From Verminephrobacter eiseniae EF01-2 (GTDB lineage: Bacteria > Pseudomonadota > Gammaproteobacteria > Burkholderiales > Burkholderiaceae_C): a DNA stretch of 64,000 bases. Below, in pieces: positions 56,053 through 64,000 of the stretch; position 1 is the first letter of the stretch, and every line of letters begins with the position of its first letter. The DNA lies in assembly GCF_000015565.1 (NCBI RefSeq), contig NC_008786.1, positions 1,240,001-1,304,000 of the forward strand, read 5' to 3'. A program made the position numbers and the translations under genes. The notes beneath the pieces were generated by a model that was not told the DNA's origin, searched no databases, and worked only from the letters and a program-made list of their open reading frames with translations.

Positions 56053-56496
56053 ATGTACAAGCGCATCCTGATAGCCACCGACGGCTCGGCCCTGTCGGAC
56101 AAAGCCGTCGAACATGGCCTGGCATTGGCCGCACTCACCGGCGCCACCGTGGTGGCCCTGAAAGTCGTGCCCCGCTACCCCCGCAGCTACTTTGAAGGCG
56201 GCGTGCCGGCCGACATGAACGCCGTCAAGCACATCGAAGCCCAATGGGGCGACGCAGCCCAAGCCATGGTCGATGGCGTGAAGGCCCGGGGCGACGCCCA
56301 AGGGGTGACGGTCAAAGCGGTCATCGCCAAGTCCGACCTGGTGGCCGAGGCCGTGATTGCTGCCGCCAAGAAGCACAAGTGCGACCTGATCGTGATGGCA
56401 TCGCACGGCCGCAAGGGCCTCAAGCGCCTGCTGCTGGGCAGCGAAACCCAGCATGTGCTCACGCACTCGCATATCCCGGTGCTGGTGCTGCGCTGA
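56053..56496 (+). CDS. Universal stress protein (UspA family)
   Basis: 147 residues. MYKRILIATDGSALSDKAVE is the standard N-terminus; the ATP-binding loop near the C-terminus reads IVMASHGRKGLKRLLLGSET (G-2x-G-9x-G-S type), so it is probably an ATP-binding Usp. Divergent from ccoI and sharing an FNR box, it is likely induced at low oxygen, as several Usp proteins are. Confidence 0.93.
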   Translation: MYKRILIATDGSALSDKAVEHGLALAALTGATVVALKVVPRYPRSYFEGGVPADMNAVKHIEAQWGDAAQAMVDGVKARGDAQGVTVKAVIAKSDLVAEAVIAAAKKHKCDLIVMASHGRKGLKRLLLGSETQHVLTHSHIPVLVLR

Positions 56497-57003
56497 GGCG
56501 AGCGCAGCGCAGTGCGCGCAGGGTGACGAACCCGTTTGAACGATCGGGCCGATGGCCTGGAATTCAGCGCATCGCACGCAAGGCCACCGACGGACAACCC
56601 GGTCCCTCCGGGCGCAGTTGCAGATGCGGGCTTGGCCACCCGCTGCACGGCACGCCAACTCGCCCGGCTCTGGATGACCACGCTCGCCGTGCGCCGGGCG
56701 CTTTCGCGTCCGCCGCAGATTTCATTCATGCGGCGATGCGATTTGGCGCAGGCTCCTTGCAGGACGGACAGGCAGCCAGTTTCGCCAGACATTCGGGGGA
56801 GATCAGGAGGATGTCGATTTCTCCACTGGCAAGTGTGGCCTCAACGTCAGTCGCGTGGGGCCGCCAGCCAGGGCCGGATCAGGTGGAACCAGATCAAAGC
56901 AGATCGAACCACGCCAGATCAGGCTTCAGAAGGCCGTTTCATGCGATGATGCAAATGCCGCCAGAAATTCGTCCAAATTCGTCCTTTTGATGAAAGCCAA
57001 GTC
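56497..57003. other. Gene-poor boundary between the cco block and the defence island
   Basis: No intact gene is convincing. On the minus strand, 56726-56856 reads EATLASGEIDILLISPECLA, which resembles the segment before the DEAH box of RecQ-type helicases (GExDxLLxSPExL) and ends at a stop; it may be a helicase relic. AGATC occurs three times within 56891-56920. A tandem direct repeat (AAATTCGTCC)2 sits at 56965-56984, 20 bases before the HTH gene. Confidence 0.35.
56965..56984 (+). promoter_or_regulatory. Tandem decamer direct repeat upstream of the defence island
   Basis: Two perfect adjacent copies of AAATTCGTCC, AT-richer than their surroundings and 19-38 bases upstream of the HTH start codon. 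A direct repeat with about one helical turn spacing in front of a small HTH gene suggests an operator for autoregulation. Confidence 0.4.
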
Positions 57004-57201
57004 ATGACTGATCGCTGGTTGTCGGTCGAAGAAATCGCCGAATACCTCGGCGTGAGCAAGGACACCGTGTATGCGTGGATCAACAAACGCAACATGCCGG
57101 CCCACCGCATCGGTCGACTCTGGAAATTCAAATCCGAAGAAGTCGACGCGTGGGTGCTCTCGGGTGGCGCGGCAGAAAACGAAGAGCGGGAAAAGGAATG
57201 A
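57004..57201 (+). CDS. Excisionase-family HTH DNA-binding protein
   Basis: 65 residues: WLSVEEIAEYLGVSKDTVYA, then WINKRNMPAHRIGRLWKFKS with a final EEVDAWV. This is the MerR-like HTH_17 domain, with winged arginines in HRIGRLWKF. Proteins like this are excisionases or small regulators at the head of defence islands and restriction loci. With the methyltransferase directly downstream, a regulatory role is the more likely. The C-terminus is a charged tail (AAENEEREKE). Confidence 0.85.
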   Translation: MTDRWLSVEEIAEYLGVSKDTVYAWINKRNMPAHRIGRLWKFKSEEVDAWVLSGGAAENEEREKE

Positions 57202-57266
57202 AGGACTTGGCTTCTGCTGGTTTCGATCGCCTCATGCAATGGTCGAAACGAAAACAGGAGAATTGA
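57198..57266 (+). CDS. Possible 22-residue coupled ORF between HTH and methyltransferase genes
   Basis: ATGA overlap with the HTH stop opens MKDLASAGFDRLMQWSKRKQ, then EN and a TGA one base before the methyltransferase ATG. AAAAGGA lies just upstream and ACAGGAGA inside the end serves the methyltransferase. It may be a real micropeptide or only a path for ribosomes to reach the next start. No homology is claimed. Confidence 0.3.
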   Translation: MKDLASAGFDRLMQWSKRKQEN

Positions 57267-57267
57267 C

Positions 57268-58317
57268 ATGAAGAAAAAAATTGCTTGTGTCGATTTATTC
57301 TGCGGCGCTGGCGGATTGACGCATGGCTTTATTCTGGAGGGCCTTCCCGTCGTTGCGGGCATCGATCTCGATCCCGCCTGCCGCTTTCCTTACGAAAAGA
57401 ACAATGCTCAGGCCAAGTTCGTCGAGCGCGACATCGGCAAAGTCACGACCACCGAGCTCAAGGCGCTGTTCGGTGCCGCCGATGTGACGATCTTGGCGGG
57501 TTGCGCGCCTTGCCAGCCGTTCTCGACCTATGCCCAACGTTACGAACTCGATGGCAAGGATGGCAAGTGGGGCCTGCTCTACCAGTTTGCGCGCCTCGCC
57601 GAAGGCACGATGCCCGACGTCATCACGATGGAGAACGTGCCGACCGTCGCCAAGCACGAGGTATTTCACGACTTCGTCGATACGCTGAAACGACTCGGCT
57701 ACGAGGTTTGGCACGACGTCGTCGATAGTTCTCTCTATGGCGTCCCGCAGATGCGACGTCGGATGGTGTTGCTGGCCTCCAAGCACGGCAAGATCGAGAT
57801 GATCGAGCCGACGCGCAAGAAACCCAAGACGGTAAAGCAAGCCATCGGACGCTTGCGTCCTCTCAGCGCCGGTGAATCCGCGCCCAAGGACAAACTGCAC
57901 GTCACCTCGACGCTGTCCGACACGAACCTCGAGCGAATCAAGGTCTCCAAGCCCGGCGGCACTTGGCGCGATTGGCCGAAGAACCTCGTCGCCGAATGCC
58001 ACCGCGCCGAAAGCGGTCGCACCTATCCGGGCGTGTACGGACGGATGGAGTGGGACAAGCCTGCGCCGACGATGACGACCCAATGCTACGGGTTCGGCAA
58101 TGGCCGCTTCGGCCACCCCGAGCAGGATCGGGCCATCTCTCTTCGTGAAGCCGCGATCTTGCAGAGCTTTCCACGCAACTACAAATTCATCCCAAAGCGT
58201 GGTGAGGTCAGCTTCAAAGTGCTCGGTCGGTTGATCGGCAATGCGGTGCCCGTCGATCTCGGTCGCGCCATCGCCCGCAGCATCGACCAGCACCTCGCGT
58301 CGGTTCCGGCCAAGTGA
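57268..58317 (+). CDS. DNA (cytosine-5-)-methyltransferase
   Basis: 349 residues. Motif I VDLFCGAGGLTHGF, motif IV GCAPCQPFSTYAQ with catalytic Cys82, motif VI MENVPTV, motif VIII PQMRRRMVLLA, a variable region ~180-255, motif IX around SLREAAILQSFP and motif X GNAVPVDLGRAIA are all present, so it should be active. The shortish target-recognition region does not reveal its site. It is the first enzyme of the island, and is best read as self-marking for the adjacent system and possibly as a DrmMII-like component. Confidence 0.95.
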   Translation: MKKKIACVDLFCGAGGLTHGFILEGLPVVAGIDLDPACRFPYEKNNAQAKFVERDIGKVTTTELKALFGAADVTILAGCAPCQPFSTYAQRYELDGKDGKWGLLYQFARLAEGTMPDVITMENVPTVAKHEVFHDFVDTLKRLGYEVWHDVVDSSLYGVPQMRRRMVLLASKHGKIEMIEPTRKKPKTVKQAIGRLRPLSAGESAPKDKLHVTSTLSDTNLERIKVSKPGGTWRDWPKNLVAECHRAESGRTYPGVYGRMEWDKPAPTMTTQCYGFGNGRFGHPEQDRAISLREAAILQSFPRNYKFIPKRGEVSFKVLGRLIGNAVPVDLGRAIARSIDQHLASVPAK

Positions 58318-58338
58318 TGGGCTGACGAGGACTACTGG

Positions 58339-58797
58339 ATGCCCGGACTCGTGTCCTCATCATCCAATGCCAGTCGCCGCATGGTGAAGGTGAGGCAGAC
58401 GGGCACGGACGCCGAGCTGGCGCTACGTCGGGAGATGTACCGCATCGGTCTGCGCTACAGGATCGGCTACGAGGTTCTGAGAAAGCCGCGCCGCGTCGCC
58501 GATGTCGCTTTCCCCGGCCGCAAGATCGCCGTCTTCGTCGATGGCTGCTTCTGGCATGGCTGTCCGGAACACGCCACGTGGCCGAAGCGGAACGCGGACT
58601 TCTGGCGGCAGAAGATCGAGGCCAATCGTCAGCGTGACGCGGATACGAACGCACGGCTCCAAGCCAACGGCTGGACGGTGCTGCGATTCTGGTCGCACGA
58701 GTCGCCGATCGAAGCTGCCAAGACGGTCGCCCGCGTGGTTGCCAAGGCGGACATGAAGCACCGCGCCCCGTCATCCGACGCGCAAGAGCAGAACTGA
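58339..58797 (+). CDS. vsr: Vsr-family DNA mismatch endonuclease
   Basis: 152 residues. Vsr marks: TDAELALRREMYRIGLRYRI, RRVADVAFPGRKIAVFVDGC with the catalytic Asp, FWHGCPEHATWPKRNADFW (zinc/His region) and NGWTVLRFWSHES. Vsr nicks T:G mismatches that arise by deamination of 5-methylcytosine, so it normally accompanies a cytosine methyltransferase, as here. The first ~14 residues are unconserved and ATG 58381 is an alternative start. Confidence 0.93.
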   Translation: MPGLVSSSSNASRRMVKVRQTGTDAELALRREMYRIGLRYRIGYEVLRKPRRVADVAFPGRKIAVFVDGCFWHGCPEHATWPKRNADFWRQKIEANRQRDADTNARLQANGWTVLRFWSHESPIEAAKTVARVVAKADMKHRAPSSDAQEQN

Positions 58798-58816
58798 CAG
58801 GGAAGATGACCACCAC

Positions 58817-61800
58817 ATGGGCACCCAGAACGAACGGCAACCTCAGACATATCGCGCTCGCCCCGAGCCGGGGCAGCTCGTCGAGGTGCGCCGTCGTCAA
58901 TGGGTGGTGGCCGACGTCGATGCCGCAGGACTGGAAACCGGCGCTCGCCAACACTGCGTGACGCTCTCGTCGATCGACGAGGACGGCCTCGGCGAAGAAC
59001 TGGAAGTCGTCTGGGAGATCGAGCCGGGCGCTCAGGTCATCGAGCGCGCGGGCTTGCCATCCGTCACGGGGCAGGACGATTCGGACATGCTCGACGCCTT
59101 CCTCGATGCCGTGCGCTGGGGTGCAGCCACCAACGCCGACCGGGGATTTCTCCAAGCGCCGTTCCGCAGCGGCGTCAGCATCGAAGACTTCCAGCTCGAC
59201 CCGCTGGTGCGCGCCATCGACATGGCTCGCGTCAACCTGCTCATCGCTGACGATGTTGGCCTCGGCAAGACCATCGAGGCCGGTCTGGTCGTTCAGGAAC
59301 TGCTGCTGCGGCATCGCGCACGCACCGTCCTGGTCGTCTGCCCCGCGTCGCTTCAGGAGAAGTGGCGTGTCGAGATGCTGGAGAAATTCGGCCTCGACTT
59401 CCGCGTGGTCGACACCGACTACATCAAACGGCTACGGCGCGAACGCGGCATCCACGCCAATCCTTGGACCTCGCATCCGCGCCTCATCACGTCGATGGAT
59501 TGGGCCAAGGGCGGCGAAGGCTTGCGCGCCATGCGCGATGTCATTCCTGCGCATGTCGGCCATCCGCGCAAGTTCGATCTGCTGGTCGTGGACGAAGCGC
59601 ACAACGTCGCGCCCGCCGCAGGCGCGCACTACGCGCTGGAGAGCCAGCGCACGCGCTTCGTCCGTGCCATCGGCCCGCACTTCCAGCATCGTCTGTTCCT
59701 GACCGCGACGCCACACAACGGCTACACCGAGTCGTTCACTGCGCTGCTGGAACTGCTGGACGATCAGCGCTTTGCGCGCAACATCCTTCCCGACGAAAAG
59801 CGCCTGAGTCAGGTGATGATCCGTCGCCTGAAGAGCGATCTGGTCGATGCGGACGGCAATCCCCTGTACGCCCGGCGCACCTTGCAGGCGCTCGAAGTCC
59901 CCTACACGGCGGAAGAACGCGAAATACACCGCAAGCTGGATGACTATTGCGCCAGCCGCGAAAAGGACGCCGAGAAAGCGGGCAACGGCTTCGGCACGGT
60001 CTTCGTCAATCGCCTCCTCAAGAAGCGTCTGCTCTCGTCACCGGCGGCATTCGCGTCCACACTCGAAAAGCACGTCGCATCGCTGTCCGAAGCACGGCCC
60101 GCGAAGCCGGATGCGATGGCCGAGCGCATCCTGCACAAGGCCATCCTGAAGGCCGACGAGGACTACGCCGACGATCGGGAAGTCGAGAACGCGCAAGCCG
60201 AAGCCATCGAGGAAGCCACGCGCCGCTCGATGCCGTTGACGGCGGAGCAGCGGGCGATGCTGTCTGAACTTCGGGCGTGGGCTTGGCGCGCCCGCAATCA
60301 GGCCGACTCCAAGGCCCAAGCCATCCTCGACTGGCTCACGGTCAATCTCAAAACCAACGGCGAGTGGAACGACCGCCGGGTGATCCTGTTCACCGAGTAC
60401 CGCACCACGCACCAGTGGATGCAGCAAATCCTCGCCAGCCACGGCTTCGGCAGCGAGCGTCTCGGCCTGCTCCACGGCGGGCTTCCCCAAGAAGAGCGCG
60501 AACCGATCAAGGCGGCATTCCAAGCCTCTCCGCAGGATTCGCCCGTCCGCATCCTGCTCGCCACCGATGCAGCCTCCGAAGGCATCGACTTGCAGAACCA
60601 CTGCAATCTGCTCATCCACCTGGAGATTCCCTACAACCCCAACGTGATGGAGCAGCGCAACGGGCGCATCGACCGCCACGGCCAGCGCGAGAAGGAAGTG
60701 CTGATCTGGCATCCGGTCGATGGCGGCCACGGCGAGGACATCCTGCGCGCCCTGCGGAAACTGGATTCGATGCGCGCCGACATGGGCAGCGTCAACCCGG
60801 TCATCGCGCCACAAATGCCCGGCCTCATCGAAGGCTCGCTGAAGGACTTGGACACCCGCATGGCCGAGGCGCGGATCGCGCGGGCCAAGAACTACGTTCG
60901 CGCCGAGCGCGAGTTGAAGGAGCGCGTCGCCAAGCTGCACGAGCGACTGCTCGCCACCAAGCAGGATTTCCACCTCACGCCCGACCACGTCCTGATGGCC
61001 GTGAAAACCGGCCTCGCGCTGGCGGGCCGTCCGCCGCTGGAACCCGTCGAACTGGCGGGCGCGCCTTCGGGCAGCGTCTTCCGGATGCCTGCGCTGTCTG
61101 GCTCGTGGGCGCGCTGTCTGGAAGGGCTGCGCCACCCGCACACGCAGAAGATGCGCCCCATCACCTTCGACCATGCCGTTGCCAGTGGCCGCGACGACGT
61201 CGTGCTCGTCCACCTGAACCATCGCCTGGTGCAGATGTGCCTGCGCCTGCTGCGCGCCGAAATCTGGGCGCAGGACGACGTGAAGAAACTGCACCGCGTC
61301 ACCGTCCGCACCGTGCCGGATGCACTCGTCGATGGCCCCGCCGTGGTCGCCGTCTCACGGCTGCTCGTCACCGGCGGCAACCACCATCGGCTGCACGAGG
61401 AACTGACGGTATCGGGCGGCTACCTGCGCGACCAGTCCTTCCGCCGCGAAGAAGGCGTCACCCGCGTCCAGCAGTGGTTGGACGAAGCGAAGCCGATCAC
61501 GGCAGCCCCATCCCTGTTCGATGCACTGCGCGTCCGCTTCGACCGTCAGCAGGAGGCCATCCTGAAGGCCGTCGATGCCCGTTCCAAAGAACGTCTCCGC
61601 TACCTGACCAACACGCTCCAGACCCGCAAGCAGCAGGAGCTTGACGATATCGGCACGGTGCTCGACGAACTGGAAAAGGCAATCCAGTCCGAGTTGAAGA
61701 AGGATCAGCAACCCGAACAGCTCTCGCTCTTCACCGAGGACGAGCGCACGCAGCTCCGGCGCGACATCGCTGCGTTGGAAGCGCGCCTCGCACGCATCCC

Positions 61801-61912
61801 CGACGAGCGCAGGATGGAGACGCAGGCCATCGAATCCCGCTACGCCAAGCTCGACGACCGCACCTTCCCGGTGGCGGTGATCTTCGTCGTGTCGGAGGGC
61901 AGCGCAAGATGA
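58817..61912 (+). CDS. drmD: SNF2-family helicase, DISARM DrmD-like
   Basis: 1031 residues. An N-terminal ~120-residue domain (PGQLVEVRRRQWVVADV ... APFRSGVSIEDFQLDPL) precedes the helicase core: Walker A ADDVGLGKTIEAGL (148-152), VVDEAHNVAP (DEAH ~259), LTATPHNGY, and in lobe 2 ATDAASEGIDLQ and NGRIDRHGQREKEV. The C-terminal ~400 residues are charged and coiled-coil-like. The N-terminal domain, GRIDRHGQ motif and length match my recollection of DrmD, the class 1 DISARM helicase; other SNF2 helicases of phage-defence loci are related. Its last four bases (ATGA) overlap the next gene. Confidence 0.8.
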   Translation: MGTQNERQPQTYRARPEPGQLVEVRRRQWVVADVDAAGLETGARQHCVTLSSIDEDGLGEELEVVWEIEPGAQVIERAGLPSVTGQDDSDMLDAFLDAVRWGAATNADRGFLQAPFRSGVSIEDFQLDPLVRAIDMARVNLLIADDVGLGKTIEAGLVVQELLLRHRARTVLVVCPASLQEKWRVEMLEKFGLDFRVVDTDYIKRLRRERGIHANPWTSHPRLITSMDWAKGGEGLRAMRDVIPAHVGHPRKFDLLVVDEAHNVAPAAGAHYALESQRTRFVRAIGPHFQHRLFLTATPHNGYTESFTALLELLDDQRFARNILPDEKRLSQVMIRRLKSDLVDADGNPLYARRTLQALEVPYTAEEREIHRKLDDYCASREKDAEKAGNGFGTVFVNRLLKKRLLSSPAAFASTLEKHVASLSEARPAKPDAMAERILHKAILKADEDYADDREVENAQAEAIEEATRRSMPLTAEQRAMLSELRAWAWRARNQADSKAQAILDWLTVNLKTNGEWNDRRVILFTEYRTTHQWMQQILASHGFGSERLGLLHGGLPQEEREPIKAAFQASPQDSPVRILLATDAASEGIDLQNHCNLLIHLEIPYNPNVMEQRNGRIDRHGQREKEVLIWHPVDGGHGEDILRALRKLDSMRADMGSVNPVIAPQMPGLIEGSLKDLDTRMAEARIARAKNYVRAERELKERVAKLHERLLATKQDFHLTPDHVLMAVKTGLALAGRPPLEPVELAGAPSGSVFRMPALSGSWARCLEGLRHPHTQKMRPITFDHAVASGRDDVVLVHLNHRLVQMCLRLLRAEIWAQDDVKKLHRVTVRTVPDALVDGPAVVAVSRLLVTGGNHHRLHEELTVSGGYLRDQSFRREEGVTRVQQWLDEAKPITAAPSLFDALRVRFDRQQEAILKAVDARSKERLRYLTNTLQTRKQQELDDIGTVLDELEKAIQSELKKDQQPEQLSLFTEDERTQLRRDIAALEARLARIPDERRMETQAIESRYAKLDDRTFPVAVIFVVSEGSAR

Positions 61913-63930
61913 GTCGCGGCGTTCGATATTCGCTATCCGGATTCGCGCATGCCGATGACGCTCAGTTGCTGGGCGAGCTCACCGACGCGGTTGCCTCGAC
62001 AGGTATACAAAGCACACGCACGACCCAGATAGAAACGTGGAAGACCCAGGTCGCGCTCCTGAAGCAATGTGCGTATGCCCTGATCGAGATGCACGAGGCC
62101 GCCAAAGGCTGGCAAGTGATCCTTGAGTATGAACTGCCACGCCGCCAGAAGCGCCCCGATGCGATCTTGCTCGCCGAGGACGTGATCCTTGTAGTCGAGT
62201 TCAAGGTCGGAGCCATGTCTCACGATGCATCGTCTCGCTGGCAAGTAGAAGATTACTGCTTGAACTTGCGTGACTTCCACGGCGGCAGTTCCGGGCGCGC
62301 GATCGTGCCGGTGCTTTGTTCCACTGCTACGCCGACCGTCATGAGTTCGCCTTTAATTTCGAGCTCCTGTGTCGCGCCCATACGGCTCACGAATGCCAAC
62401 GGCCTAGCCAGCGTATTGCTGTCGGCCTACTCGGCGCAGCACGATCCCAGCGACCGATCCATTGATCCCGACACATGGGTCGATGCACCGTACCGTCCGA
62501 CGCTTTCGGTCATAGAAGCAGCTGAGCGCCTTTACGAGAACCATGACGTTCGTGAGATCAGCCACAGCTACGCCAGCAACTTGGACGCAACGACGGACCT
62601 GCTTTCGGAAGTGATCAGAGAAGCACGTGCGCAGAACCGACGGTGCGTATGCTTCGTCACCGGTGTTCCAGGCGCCGGGAAAACGTTGACTGGGCTCAAC
62701 GTCGTCCACGACCCATCCCTGCGTGTGGAAGGCGGCCCATCTGGAATCTTCTTGTCCGGCAACGGCCCCCTGGTCAAGGTCGTGCGAGAGGCTTTGGTGT
62801 TGAGCCAGCAGCGTGCCGGGCGTCGGCGCCAGGACAGCGCCCATGAAGTCTCGACCTTCATCCAGAACGTCCACCAATTCTTGCGCTATCACCGCGAGCA
62901 TCCCGCGGCTCTGCCACACGAGCACGTCGTCGTCTTCGACGAGGCCCAACGTGCATGGGATCGCGAGCAGATGCAGCGCAAGCAAGGGGTGGACCGTTCG
63001 GAGGCTGCCGAACTCTTCGACGTGATGGATCGACTGGATGGATGGGCCGTGATCATTGCTCTCGTCGGCGGCGGACAAGAGATCTTCCTCGGTGAGGCAG
63101 GATTGGAGGAATGGGGGCGAGCCGTCGCCGTTCGGCCCGATTGGCGAGTCGTCGCCTCTCCCGAAGTCGTCTCCGGAGGTGCCAGCGTATCCGGACATCG
63201 CTTGTTCACTGATGGCGTTCCCTCTGGCATCGAGTTCCGCCCCGAGCCATTGGCGCACCTCAGTGTCGGCGTGCGAAGCTTTCGCGCTCAACGGTTGGCG
63301 GAGTGGGTCGATGCGGTGCTCCTCCTCGATACCGAACACGCACGGTCTCTCGTGCCGGATCGCCGGGAGTTCCCGCTCCATTTCACTCGTGATCTCGAAG
63401 TCGCCAAGGCGTGGTTGCGAGCCAGGAGTGAACCGGGCTGTGGTCAGCGAGCAGGCCTGATCGCTACATCGGAGGATCAACGTCTTCGTGCCTATGGCCT
63501 GGAACGCTCCAGTGCCTTCCGGCTGGATTACTCGTTCGAGAAGTGGTTCCTGATGCCTCCCGCGGACGTTCGTTCGAGCCATGCTCTCGAGGTGGCGGCG
63601 TCGGAGTTCGAATGCCAAGGGCTCGAGCTCGATTGGGTGGGACTGTGCTGGGGCGGCGATTTGACGCCATCCGCCTCTGGCAGCTGGGAGTACCGCAAGT
63701 TTCGCGGCAGTAGCTGGAATCAGGTGCGTAGCGATTCGGAACGCACCTATGTACGCAATCGCTACCGCGTGCTGCTCACGCGTGCGCGTCTCGGCATGGT
63801 CATCTGGATACCTCCGGGTAAGGCAAGCGACCCGACGCTCGAACCGGACAGATTCGACCGGGTTCGGAGTTTGCTTGAGGCAGTCGGCGTGCCAGAGCTT
63901 CGAGAAGAATTCGAAGGGGCCGAGGCATGA
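61909..63930 (+). CDS. DUF2075 helicase with N-terminal PD-(D/E)XK-like nuclease site
   Basis: 673 residues. Residues ~60-100 contain E75, KRPDAILL (D84) and VVEFKVG (E97, K99), the spacing of a PD-(D/E)XK nuclease. The DUF2075 P-loop region follows: GVPGAGKT (252-259), VVFDEAQRAWDRE (DEAQ ~344), GGGQEIFLGEAGLEEW, and a C-terminal NRYRVLLTRARLGMVIWIP motif typical of UvrD/Schlafen-like helicases. It is coupled by ATGA at both ends, so it belongs to the same translation unit as drmD. DUF2075 proteins are common in defence islands but are not a canonical DISARM subunit. Confidence 0.85.
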   Translation: MSRGVRYSLSGFAHADDAQLLGELTDAVASTGIQSTRTTQIETWKTQVALLKQCAYALIEMHEAAKGWQVILEYELPRRQKRPDAILLAEDVILVVEFKVGAMSHDASSRWQVEDYCLNLRDFHGGSSGRAIVPVLCSTATPTVMSSPLISSSCVAPIRLTNANGLASVLLSAYSAQHDPSDRSIDPDTWVDAPYRPTLSVIEAAERLYENHDVREISHSYASNLDATTDLLSEVIREARAQNRRCVCFVTGVPGAGKTLTGLNVVHDPSLRVEGGPSGIFLSGNGPLVKVVREALVLSQQRAGRRRQDSAHEVSTFIQNVHQFLRYHREHPAALPHEHVVVFDEAQRAWDREQMQRKQGVDRSEAAELFDVMDRLDGWAVIIALVGGGQEIFLGEAGLEEWGRAVAVRPDWRVVASPEVVSGGASVSGHRLFTDGVPSGIEFRPEPLAHLSVGVRSFRAQRLAEWVDAVLLLDTEHARSLVPDRREFPLHFTRDLEVAKAWLRARSEPGCGQRAGLIATSEDQRLRAYGLERSSAFRLDYSFEKWFLMPPADVRSSHALEVAASEFECQGLELDWVGLCWGGDLTPSASGSWEYRKFRGSSWNQVRSDSERTYVRNRYRVLLTRARLGMVIWIPPGKASDPTLEPDRFDRVRSLLEAVGVPELREEFEGAEA

Positions 63931-64000
63931 GCCAAAACGATCATCACCACGACTGGCTCTCGCTCGTCGAGATTTCCGGCCCGTTCCTCGCCGTTCCCGT
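63927..64000 (+). CDS. Start of the next defence gene (truncated by the window edge)
   Basis: The ATG overlaps the previous stop (ATGA) and the frame is open to the window end: MSQNDHHHDWLSLVEISGPF, then LAVPV. Twenty-four codons are too few to assign. Position after a DrmD-type helicase suggests the adenine methylase or another DISARM component, which is inference only. Confidence 0.6.
   Translation, partial: MSQNDHHHDWLSLVEISGPFLAVP

Follow-up and report, generated by a model that had tools for sequence, protein, structure and literature searches.

The DNA analysed here (the window) is a stretch of 64,000 nucleotides from Verminephrobacter eiseniae EF01-2 (contig NC_008786.1, positions 1,240,001 to 1,304,000 of the forward strand). 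Its right end, from 57004 on, holds the first genes of a DISARM operon (defence island system associated with restriction-modification), which continues past 64000 on the same contig; positions there carry on the numbering of the window rightward and are called extended (Table 1). We read the operon as a class-1 DISARM frame with foreign defence modules built in at two junctions, and put the probability of this at roughly 80%. The junctions are those between drmD and the adenine methylase gene drmMI (slot A) and between drmMI and drmA (slot B). An earlier note on the window had listed a helix-turn-helix (HTH) gene, a C5-cytosine methylase, Vsr, a DrmD-like helicase, a DUF2075 protein and a further coupled open reading frame (ORF). 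Profile searches confirm this order and strand, and the ATGA overlaps that it saw between the last three ORFs are real (at 61909 and 63927). The further ORF is DrmMI, and the nuclease-helicase described as inserted after DrmD is a Schlafen-group-3 protein.

Table 1. Features of the DISARM island; ext. marks positions in extended numbering
Feature	Position	Strand	Evidence
HTH, small excisionase/MAD1-type protein, possible operon regulator	57004..57201	+	NF047737 83 bits (cut-off 80); PF12728 66 bits
M.C5, C5-cytosine methylase	57268..58317	+	PF00145 195 bits; PADLOC MTase_II 292 bits, DrmMII 285 bits
Vsr, very-short-patch endonuclease	58381..58797 (alternative start 58339)	+	TIGR00632 111 bits (cut-off 97.85)
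DrmD, SNF2-type helicase	58817..61912	+	NF038317 (DISARM_DrmD) 1404 bits (cut-off 610)
Slot A cargo, Schlafen-group-3 helicase (DUF2075/PDC-S41)	61909..63930	+	PF09848 SLFN-g3_helicase 271 bits (cut-off 24); PDC-S41 745 bits
DrmMI, adenine methylase	63927..64000 in the window, to 68285 ext.	+	PADLOC DrmMI PDLC02643 1980 bits
Retron effector, phosphoribosyltransferase with winged HTH	68282-69682 ext.	+	PF24390 82 bits; PF24409 59 bits; PRTase_III-A PDLC02933 320 bits
Retron RNA	69468-69686 ext.	+	conserved stretch; consensus fold over 13 loci
Retron reverse transcriptase	69683-70831 ext.	+	RT_III-A PDLC02944 520 bits; Ec86 RT structure 122 bits; YADD
BbrUII/HgiDII-family restriction enzyme	70921-72858 ext. 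(alternative start 70771)	+	NF050001 853 bits (cut-off 550)
YhcG/DUF1016 nuclease	72871-73935 ext.	+	PF06250 212 bits; PF17761 157 bits
DrmA	73947-77912 ext.	+	NF038325 1489 bits (cut-off 950)
DrmB	77909-79759 ext.	+	NF038324 760 bits (cut-off 240)
drmC stub	79761 to about 79922 ext.	+	DrmC-like for about 54 codons
HD-domain gene	79923-80477 ext.	opposite	residues 4-184 match a relative

The DISARM and DrmD identities proposed in the earlier note stand. The assignment of the SNF2-type helicase as DrmD is secure and rests on the curated NCBIfam cut-off; a second DrmD model (NF038318) gave 133 bits against a cut-off of 950, and DpdE and RapA were also far under theirs. In a PADLOC scan of the 12 array proteins (best 25 families per protein), the top model for DrmD carries the label DrmA (PDLC02572, 1706 bits; the DrmD model PDLC02621 gave 1528 bits). 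The label is probably a naming slip in a mislabelled model, since the downstream protein exceeds the cut-off for DrmA. The sole PDB matches of DrmA and DrmB are the chains of the same names in 7s9v (2249 and 1176 bits), to which they align nearly full length. We take 7s9v to be the Serratia DrmA/DrmB pair of Bravo et al., the entry displaying no organism. The DrmMI model PDLC02643 covers residues 1-1359 of 1452; DrmMI holds the NPPF motif, and one pattern for D-x-ExK found none in it. Pattern searches located PCQP and ENV in M.C5, a PD-ExK-like motif at the N-terminus of the Schlafen-group-3 protein and, over the array, Walker A, DEAH, NPPF, YADD, PRPP and PD-ExK-like motifs.

DrmA, DrmB, DrmD and DrmMI of PADLOC type I are all present, and a DrmC with a PLD domain is absent. 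The earlier note expected drmMI, drmA, drmB and drmC to the right of 64000; the first three are there (drmA-drmB at 73947-79759 extended), and drmC survives as an N-terminal stub. The note would have counted a lack of drmA, drmB and drmC homologues within about 15 kb to the right against its reading, and that outcome did not arise. From the ATG at 79761, about 54 residues resemble the DrmC of relatives, and the gene is then broken off at the island border. The DrmC family model, which is unspecific (it also has matches in 9 of 14 control genomes), matches at 79761-79928 with its positions 1-56 of 253; the only other match in the genome is on a small contig (31.5 bits). Tblastn alignments with relatives end at 79934 (G085) and 79991 (G024 and G240, 41-46% identity). 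That with G208 ends at 79922, and here the ORF starts inside drmB and the match is partly drmB. In DNA, the alignment with the HD gene of G045 begins at 79939. A search for the empty site left the left flank unmatched in 18 kb of G045, and no shared stretch of at least 11 bases was found between 56401-57010 and 79861-80600. DrmC is described as dispensable and often missing in passages of PMC9142583. Judged from its genes, the operon appears by descent to be a class-1 DISARM whose drmC is truncated, and not a complete five-gene system.

DrmE was not among the best 25 PADLOC families for any of the 12 array proteins. The DrmE and DrmMII pair of class 2 is thus not found, and the sole class-2 gene among the matches listed for the 12 proteins is the C5 methylase, which its scores do not separate from DrmMII (292 bits for MTase_II vs 285 bits for DrmMII). 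We reject the mixed class-1/class-2 system suggested in the earlier note because DrmMI follows downstream and because the C5 methylase belongs to the frame in relatives, with M.C5-Vsr-DrmD present in all seven loci examined in the close lineage. The C5 methylase is here no mark of class 2. The DISARM operon of Serratia is one that we take to be class 1. According to passages of PMC9142583, it has both a 5-methylcytosine (5mC) and an N6-methyladenine (m6A) methylase, with the motifs YMT(mC)GAKR and ACAC(mA)G; a passage of PMC12458937 counts the trigger loop that Bravo et al. described among the features of class-1 helicases.

The frame and its slots were compared between relatives. Three sets of genomes were searched with DrmD at 1e-100, and each count includes our own genome: 3 of 99 relatives matched, as did 5 of 399 genomes from the order and 5 of 369 from the class. 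Eight genomes besides our own had a match; the context was examined for G024, G085, G208, G240, G107 and G703, and G654 and G721 (DrmD 37-38%) were left out of the comparison. From 26 plasmid records with DrmD, 13 were examined, one of them without annotation. The close lineage comprises the seven loci whose DrmD is identical to ours at 67% or more (own, G024, G085, G208, G240, G703 and Microvirga terrae). The order M.C5-Vsr-DrmD-DrmMI-DrmA-DrmB is found in all seven. An HTH match precedes M.C5 in six (none in G703), and a DrmC match follows DrmB in six, all except our own. The Vsr match of G085 (8212-8650 of L084) is split over two ORFs; either Vsr is dispensable there or the assembly is in error. 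Outside the close lineage, G107 (DrmD 48-50%) has DrmD-DrmMI-DrmA-DrmB with a DrmC-like match (31% over 167 residues), and an M.C5 or Vsr match is not listed for it. A search of E. coli genomes with DrmA DNA in distant mode gave no match, and DrmD was found in one of 50,697 phage records (11,984 bases, 37% identity).

Slot A is filled in 3/7 of the close-lineage loci, slot B in 7/7 and the DrmA/DrmB junction in 0/7; none of the seven has a gene between Vsr and DrmD or between DrmA and DrmB. Slot A holds a Schlafen protein in our locus and G208 and an Mrr-type endonuclease in G024, and is empty in G085, G240, G703 and Microvirga. The content of slot B is more varied: a retron, a BbrUII enzyme and YhcG in our locus, a PifA-like KAP NTPase with a BbrUII enzyme in G024, a helicase with DUF2290 in G085 and G208, a GHKL ATPase with Methyltransf_35 in G240 and Microvirga, and a 1060-residue protein of unassigned family in G703. 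The drmMI gene of G703 is itself interrupted by a 526-residue ORF that by eye is transposase-like (L106/L107). ORFs to the left of the island in G208 and G240 resemble phage tail genes by eye, and the islands of these two may be prophage cargo. The wider set of 11 other annotated plasmid records (DrmD at most 58%) has slot B empty in the Deinococcus, Rhodococcus and Nocardia plasmids and filled in Oscillatoria, Planktothrix and Nostoc (roles taken from gene size and order), Acidibrevibacterium, Methylocystis and Thiodictyon. In Pseudanabaena it is filled and drmA-B-C is inverted; drmA is not annotated in range in Bradyrhizobium. None of the 11 has an annotated C5 methylase before DrmD.

Cargo appears to move independently of the frame. 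Between G240 and Microvirga the GHKL proteins are 84% and the Methyltransf_35 proteins 77% identical, and the frame proteins 51-73%. The Schlafen/DUF2075 protein is exchangeable cargo of this kind. The end of DrmD overlaps the following start by 4 bases, be it that of DrmMI or of cargo, in 9/9 loci (eight ATGA, one GTGA). At the end of DrmMI, an ATGA overlap with the first slot-B gene is present in five of the six loci with an uninterrupted DrmMI and a filled slot, the exception being G240.

DrmMI itself is uneven. In blocks of 100 residues, our protein is 73-93% identical to those of G024, G085, G208 and G240 over the first 800 residues and 19-58% over residues 1001-1300 (66927-67826 extended). 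This diverging recognition region also contains a match to the MmeI-type recognition domain PF20466 (residues 1154-1224), so that relatives probably differ in their m6A target; the divergence suggests that the methylation target of DrmMI changes often. The recognition region of M.C5 is steadier (66-90% among the same five loci).

A III-A reverse transcriptase, a phosphoribosyltransferase with a winged helix as effector and a structured RNA closed by the repeats a1 and a2 identify the first cargo of slot B as what appears to be a type III-A retron sitting inside the DISARM operon. The two retron genes have a GC content of 52% and a GC content at third codon positions (GC3) of 56 and 54%; the other genes of the array range from 56 to 65% and 68 to 87%, respectively, and the flanks have 66% GC. 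Since its GC and GC3 are lower than those of the other array genes, the retron appears to be a late insert. At 1e-30 the reverse transcriptase has matches in 12 of 399 genomes from the order, a count that includes ours. An alignment-based scan of genome contigs collected 57 loci, mainly close relatives of our reverse transcriptase; none has a DrmD, DrmMI, DrmA, DrmB or Schlafen match (1e-5) beside the retron, within flanks of up to 10 kb and often less.

A conserved stretch upstream of the reverse transcriptase is common to 13 loci. In our locus a1 (CCGTTCA, 69468-69474 extended) and a2 (TGAATGG, 69680-69686 extended) close the RNA, and the stretch folds with a z of -3.66 against shuffles. The consensus fold of all 13 sequences contains the a1/a2 helix and has 38 pairs, 23 of which are changed on both sides in at least one row. 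For a1/a2 alone, 97.8% of cells are paired compared to 94.1% in shuffles (0/500 as high), and one pair changes from C-G to U-A in 6/13 rows. On two of five measures a1/a2 is not above the shuffles (both-side changes, 307/500; further pair types, 500/500). An earlier fold used 9 of the 13 sequences chosen by eye, leaving out L031, L032, L033 and L036. It has 53 pairs, 31 of them with both-side changes; the share of paired cells is 88.7% compared to 76.6% when shuffled, and 0/500 shuffles reach any of five measures. The structures derive from the same sequences on which they were tested, so that the comparison with slid versions is inflated (31.6-43.8% of cells paired for slid a1/a2; at most 17 both-side-changed pairs for the slid 9-sequence fold). 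The 13-sequence fold keeps the main helices, and two 5' stem-loops of the 9-sequence fold are absent from it. Covariation over 13 sequences supports the predicted retron RNA. Rfam gave no match at gathering level on the retron stretch (L007, 12000-15200) and two below gathering scores.

No gap precedes the reverse transcriptase gene, and a retron without RNA was rejected once the RNA was located inside the frame of the effector. It lies within the last 74 codons, beyond residue 392, where the PADLOC match stops. In our locus and in the Halomonas, Verrucomicrobia and Chlorobi loci L025, L029 and L030, the effector frame lacks the usual stop and runs (in ours at 69458-69682 extended) through the RNA to the start of the reverse transcriptase. 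A frameshift at this end was considered and dropped, as the alignment shows the frame without a stop in the same four loci. The stop is present in seven loci (L028 and L031-L036), and a phosphoribosyltransferase match is absent in L026, L027 and L037, the last being outside the alignment. On a tree of 15 reverse transcriptases, the stop-less state (four rows) needs three changes and does not form one clade; 144/500 shuffles need no more changes than this, and support is poor for 7 of the 12 inner branches. Our reverse transcriptase groups with that of Halomonas (support 97/93). L013 and L014, as well as L026 and L027, have a III-A-like reverse transcriptase and the RNA with no match to the effector. 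The neighbours in L013 and L014 resemble membrane-protein and P-type ATPase genes, and the last effector codons seem to be kept upstream of the RNA.

The second module of slot B, the BbrUII enzyme, raises the question whether the C5 methylase and Vsr belong to it. M.C5 and Vsr at the left and the BbrUII enzyme would then be a split type II restriction-modification system, one unit around the DISARM genes; we rate this slightly below even odds, and it can hold together with the class-1 reading. The enzyme is above its family cut-off and has no adjacent cognate C5 methylase; the sole C5 methylase of the array is 12 kb upstream and of the same family as the methylases that neighbour BbrUII enzymes. 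Nine plasmid records matched the enzyme. Three of the four stand-alone loci examined among them have it adjoining a C5 methylase of this family (Haloplanus, Rhizobium acidisoli and B. glumae; not Rubrobacter). To these methylases our M.C5 is 53% (Haloplanus), 52% (Rhizobium) and 56% (B. glumae) identical, and 45% to that of the Deinococcus plasmid NZ_CP044987.1 (L097), where Vsr, M.C5 and the BbrUII enzyme stand together just right of drmC. The Deinococcus plasmid, with these three genes after and outside a class-1 DISARM operon, is a possible source arrangement. Passages of PMC5867850 name M.HgiDII as a 5mC methylase for GTCGAC and M.BbrUII as a 5mC methylase, and GTCGAC is given as the target of M.BbrUII in a passage of PMC5005818. 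GTCGAC occurs 41 times in 108 kb, and the remaining three N-TCGA-N palindromes 34, 17 and 13 times.

Both M.C5 and the BbrUII enzyme are present in our locus and G024, and for these two a split system is possible from the gene content. Against it, M.C5 with a similar recognition region (78 and 80% to ours) occurs in G085 and G240, where the BbrUII enzyme was not found. Over the whole protein our M.C5 is 88% identical to that of G024, with the enzyme, and 82% (G240) and 78% (G085) to those without it. Co-variation of the M.C5 recognition region with the enzyme was tested and not seen. Homologues of M.C5 outside DISARM (55-58%; H57 and H64 left out) stand beside DUF262 and HEPN nuclease genes in four cases (H58, H59, H60 and H65) and beside a BbrUII enzyme in one (B. 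glumae). The Serratia 5mC motif, as given in passages of PMC9142583, excludes GTCGAC. Separately, a Rhodanobacter locus (L080, 12775-16623) is another case of a retron next to restriction-modification genes: less than 6 kb from its III-A-like retron there are matches to Vsr (119 bits) and, weakly, to C5 methylase (56 bits) and BbrUII (26 bits).

The modules may also be a passive pile-up, independent defence systems gathered in one island with only transcription in common. We consider this, too, somewhat short of an even chance. The kinds of cargo vary between relatives, only the retron is low in GC, and embedded genes in DISARM operons are known (about 70 cases of ShdA in passages of PMC10270631). 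Against a pile-up, the inserts of the close lineage fall at two junctions with 4-base overlaps (9/9 at the end of DrmD and 5/6 at the end of DrmMI). Junctions and overlaps together favour selection on co-expression and do not argue for joint function. The new DISARM subtype suggested in the earlier note, with cytosine methylase, Vsr mismatch repair and nuclease-helicase all as integral working parts, is quite improbable: M.C5 and Vsr go with this DrmD lineage in 7/7 loci and may be integral, but the nuclease-helicase is missing from 5/7, the Vsr match of G085 is split, G107 has DISARM with neither M.C5 nor Vsr listed, and a C5 methylase in DISARM is already published for Serratia (passages of PMC9142583).

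Several observations weigh against the class-1 frame with cargo at two junctions. Outside the close lineage, inserts also occur elsewhere than in the two slots: in Planktothrix a small ORF on the minus strand separates drmA from drmB, and in Pseudanabaena a BrnT/BrnA pair separates drmB from drmC. Bacterial operons often contain ATGA overlaps, and the overlap counts given here come without a null expectation. A retron inside DISARM is seen once. For DrmMI, a type IIG enzyme model outscores even the best DrmMI model (2119 vs 1980 bits). The drmC gene is broken, and the five-gene PADLOC definition of type I DISARM includes DrmC (passage of PMC9252829). The analysis shows gene identities, a common gene order, turnover of cargo, covariation in the retron RNA and the loss of most of drmC; that the genes are expressed and active, and that cargo and core may cooperate, is inferred.

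In the class-1 reading, the families of the proteins point to a likely way of working. DrmMI (m6A) and M.C5 (5mC) would mark host DNA, and Vsr would mend the T:G mismatches that arise from deamination of 5mC. DrmAB, which binds unmodified 5'-overhang DNA in Serratia (passages of PMC9142583), would load on such DNA with the help of DrmD. The BbrUII enzyme would add site-specific cutting, the Schlafen and YhcG proteins may add other nuclease attack, and the retron phosphoribosyltransferase would lead to abortive infection once the RNA-DNA sensor is disturbed. A stronger version, which we regard as unlikely, would make the class-1 DISARM of this lineage a chassis with two translation-coupled sockets. 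Interchangeable effectors (retron, BbrUII, helicase-DUF2290, KAP NTPase, GHKL with methyltransferase) would rely on the two methylation marks to recognise self; the cargo nucleases may replace the lost DrmC, and the retron may guard against phage anti-DISARM factors.

Compared to known systems, the operon is like that of Serratia sp. SCBI (Bravo et al. 2022, passages of PMC9142583) in having 5mC and m6A methylases and in the alignment of DrmA and DrmB to 7s9v. It differs in the truncated drmC and the retron, BbrUII enzyme and YhcG of slot B, the Serratia operon being known here from its description and not its sequence. Microvirga terrae plasmid pR24_2 (NZ_CP102847) has the same HTH-M.C5-Vsr-DrmD-DrmMI-cargo-DrmA-DrmB-DrmC arrangement, but slot A is empty, slot B holds the GHKL ATPase and an O-methyltransferase, and drmC is annotated. 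The retron shares the reverse transcriptase, the phosphoribosyltransferase-winged HTH effector and the structured RNA upstream of the reverse transcriptase with type III-A retrons, for which forms with the effector and III-A1-like reverse transcriptases without it are published (passages of PMC12548924). It differs by its insertion in DISARM and by the effector frame that continues through the RNA. The likeness to HgiDII/BbrUII systems lies in the enzyme and the same-family C5 methylase, but the two are 12 kb apart here and their pairing as cognates is putative. ShdA (RmuC) in Pseudomonas is likewise an accessory defence gene within a DISARM operon; the cargo is another, and passages of PMC10270631 show no retron or restriction enzyme as cargo. 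The same source states that DISARM often adjoins restriction-modification systems.

By title and abstract, no retron with a phosphoribosyltransferase was found in DISARM in the literature. Nor did searches mainly at that level, with passages of PMC10952713, find nested cargo, Vsr or these cargo families in DISARM; the main text of PMC12458937 uses 'retron' and 'cytosine' 0 times each. Accessory genes in DISARM are already known, and within the reach of these searches the operon variant is new. The result on the C5 methylase corrects the simple rule by which class 1 and class 2 are told apart. A retron RNA within the effector frame raises the question of how one transcript serves both translation and the folding of the RNA. 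Should the two sockets prove general, the DrmD/DrmMI and DrmMI/DrmA junctions of class-1 DISARM could suffice for finding defence cargo, and how DISARM destroys DNA without DrmC would become testable.

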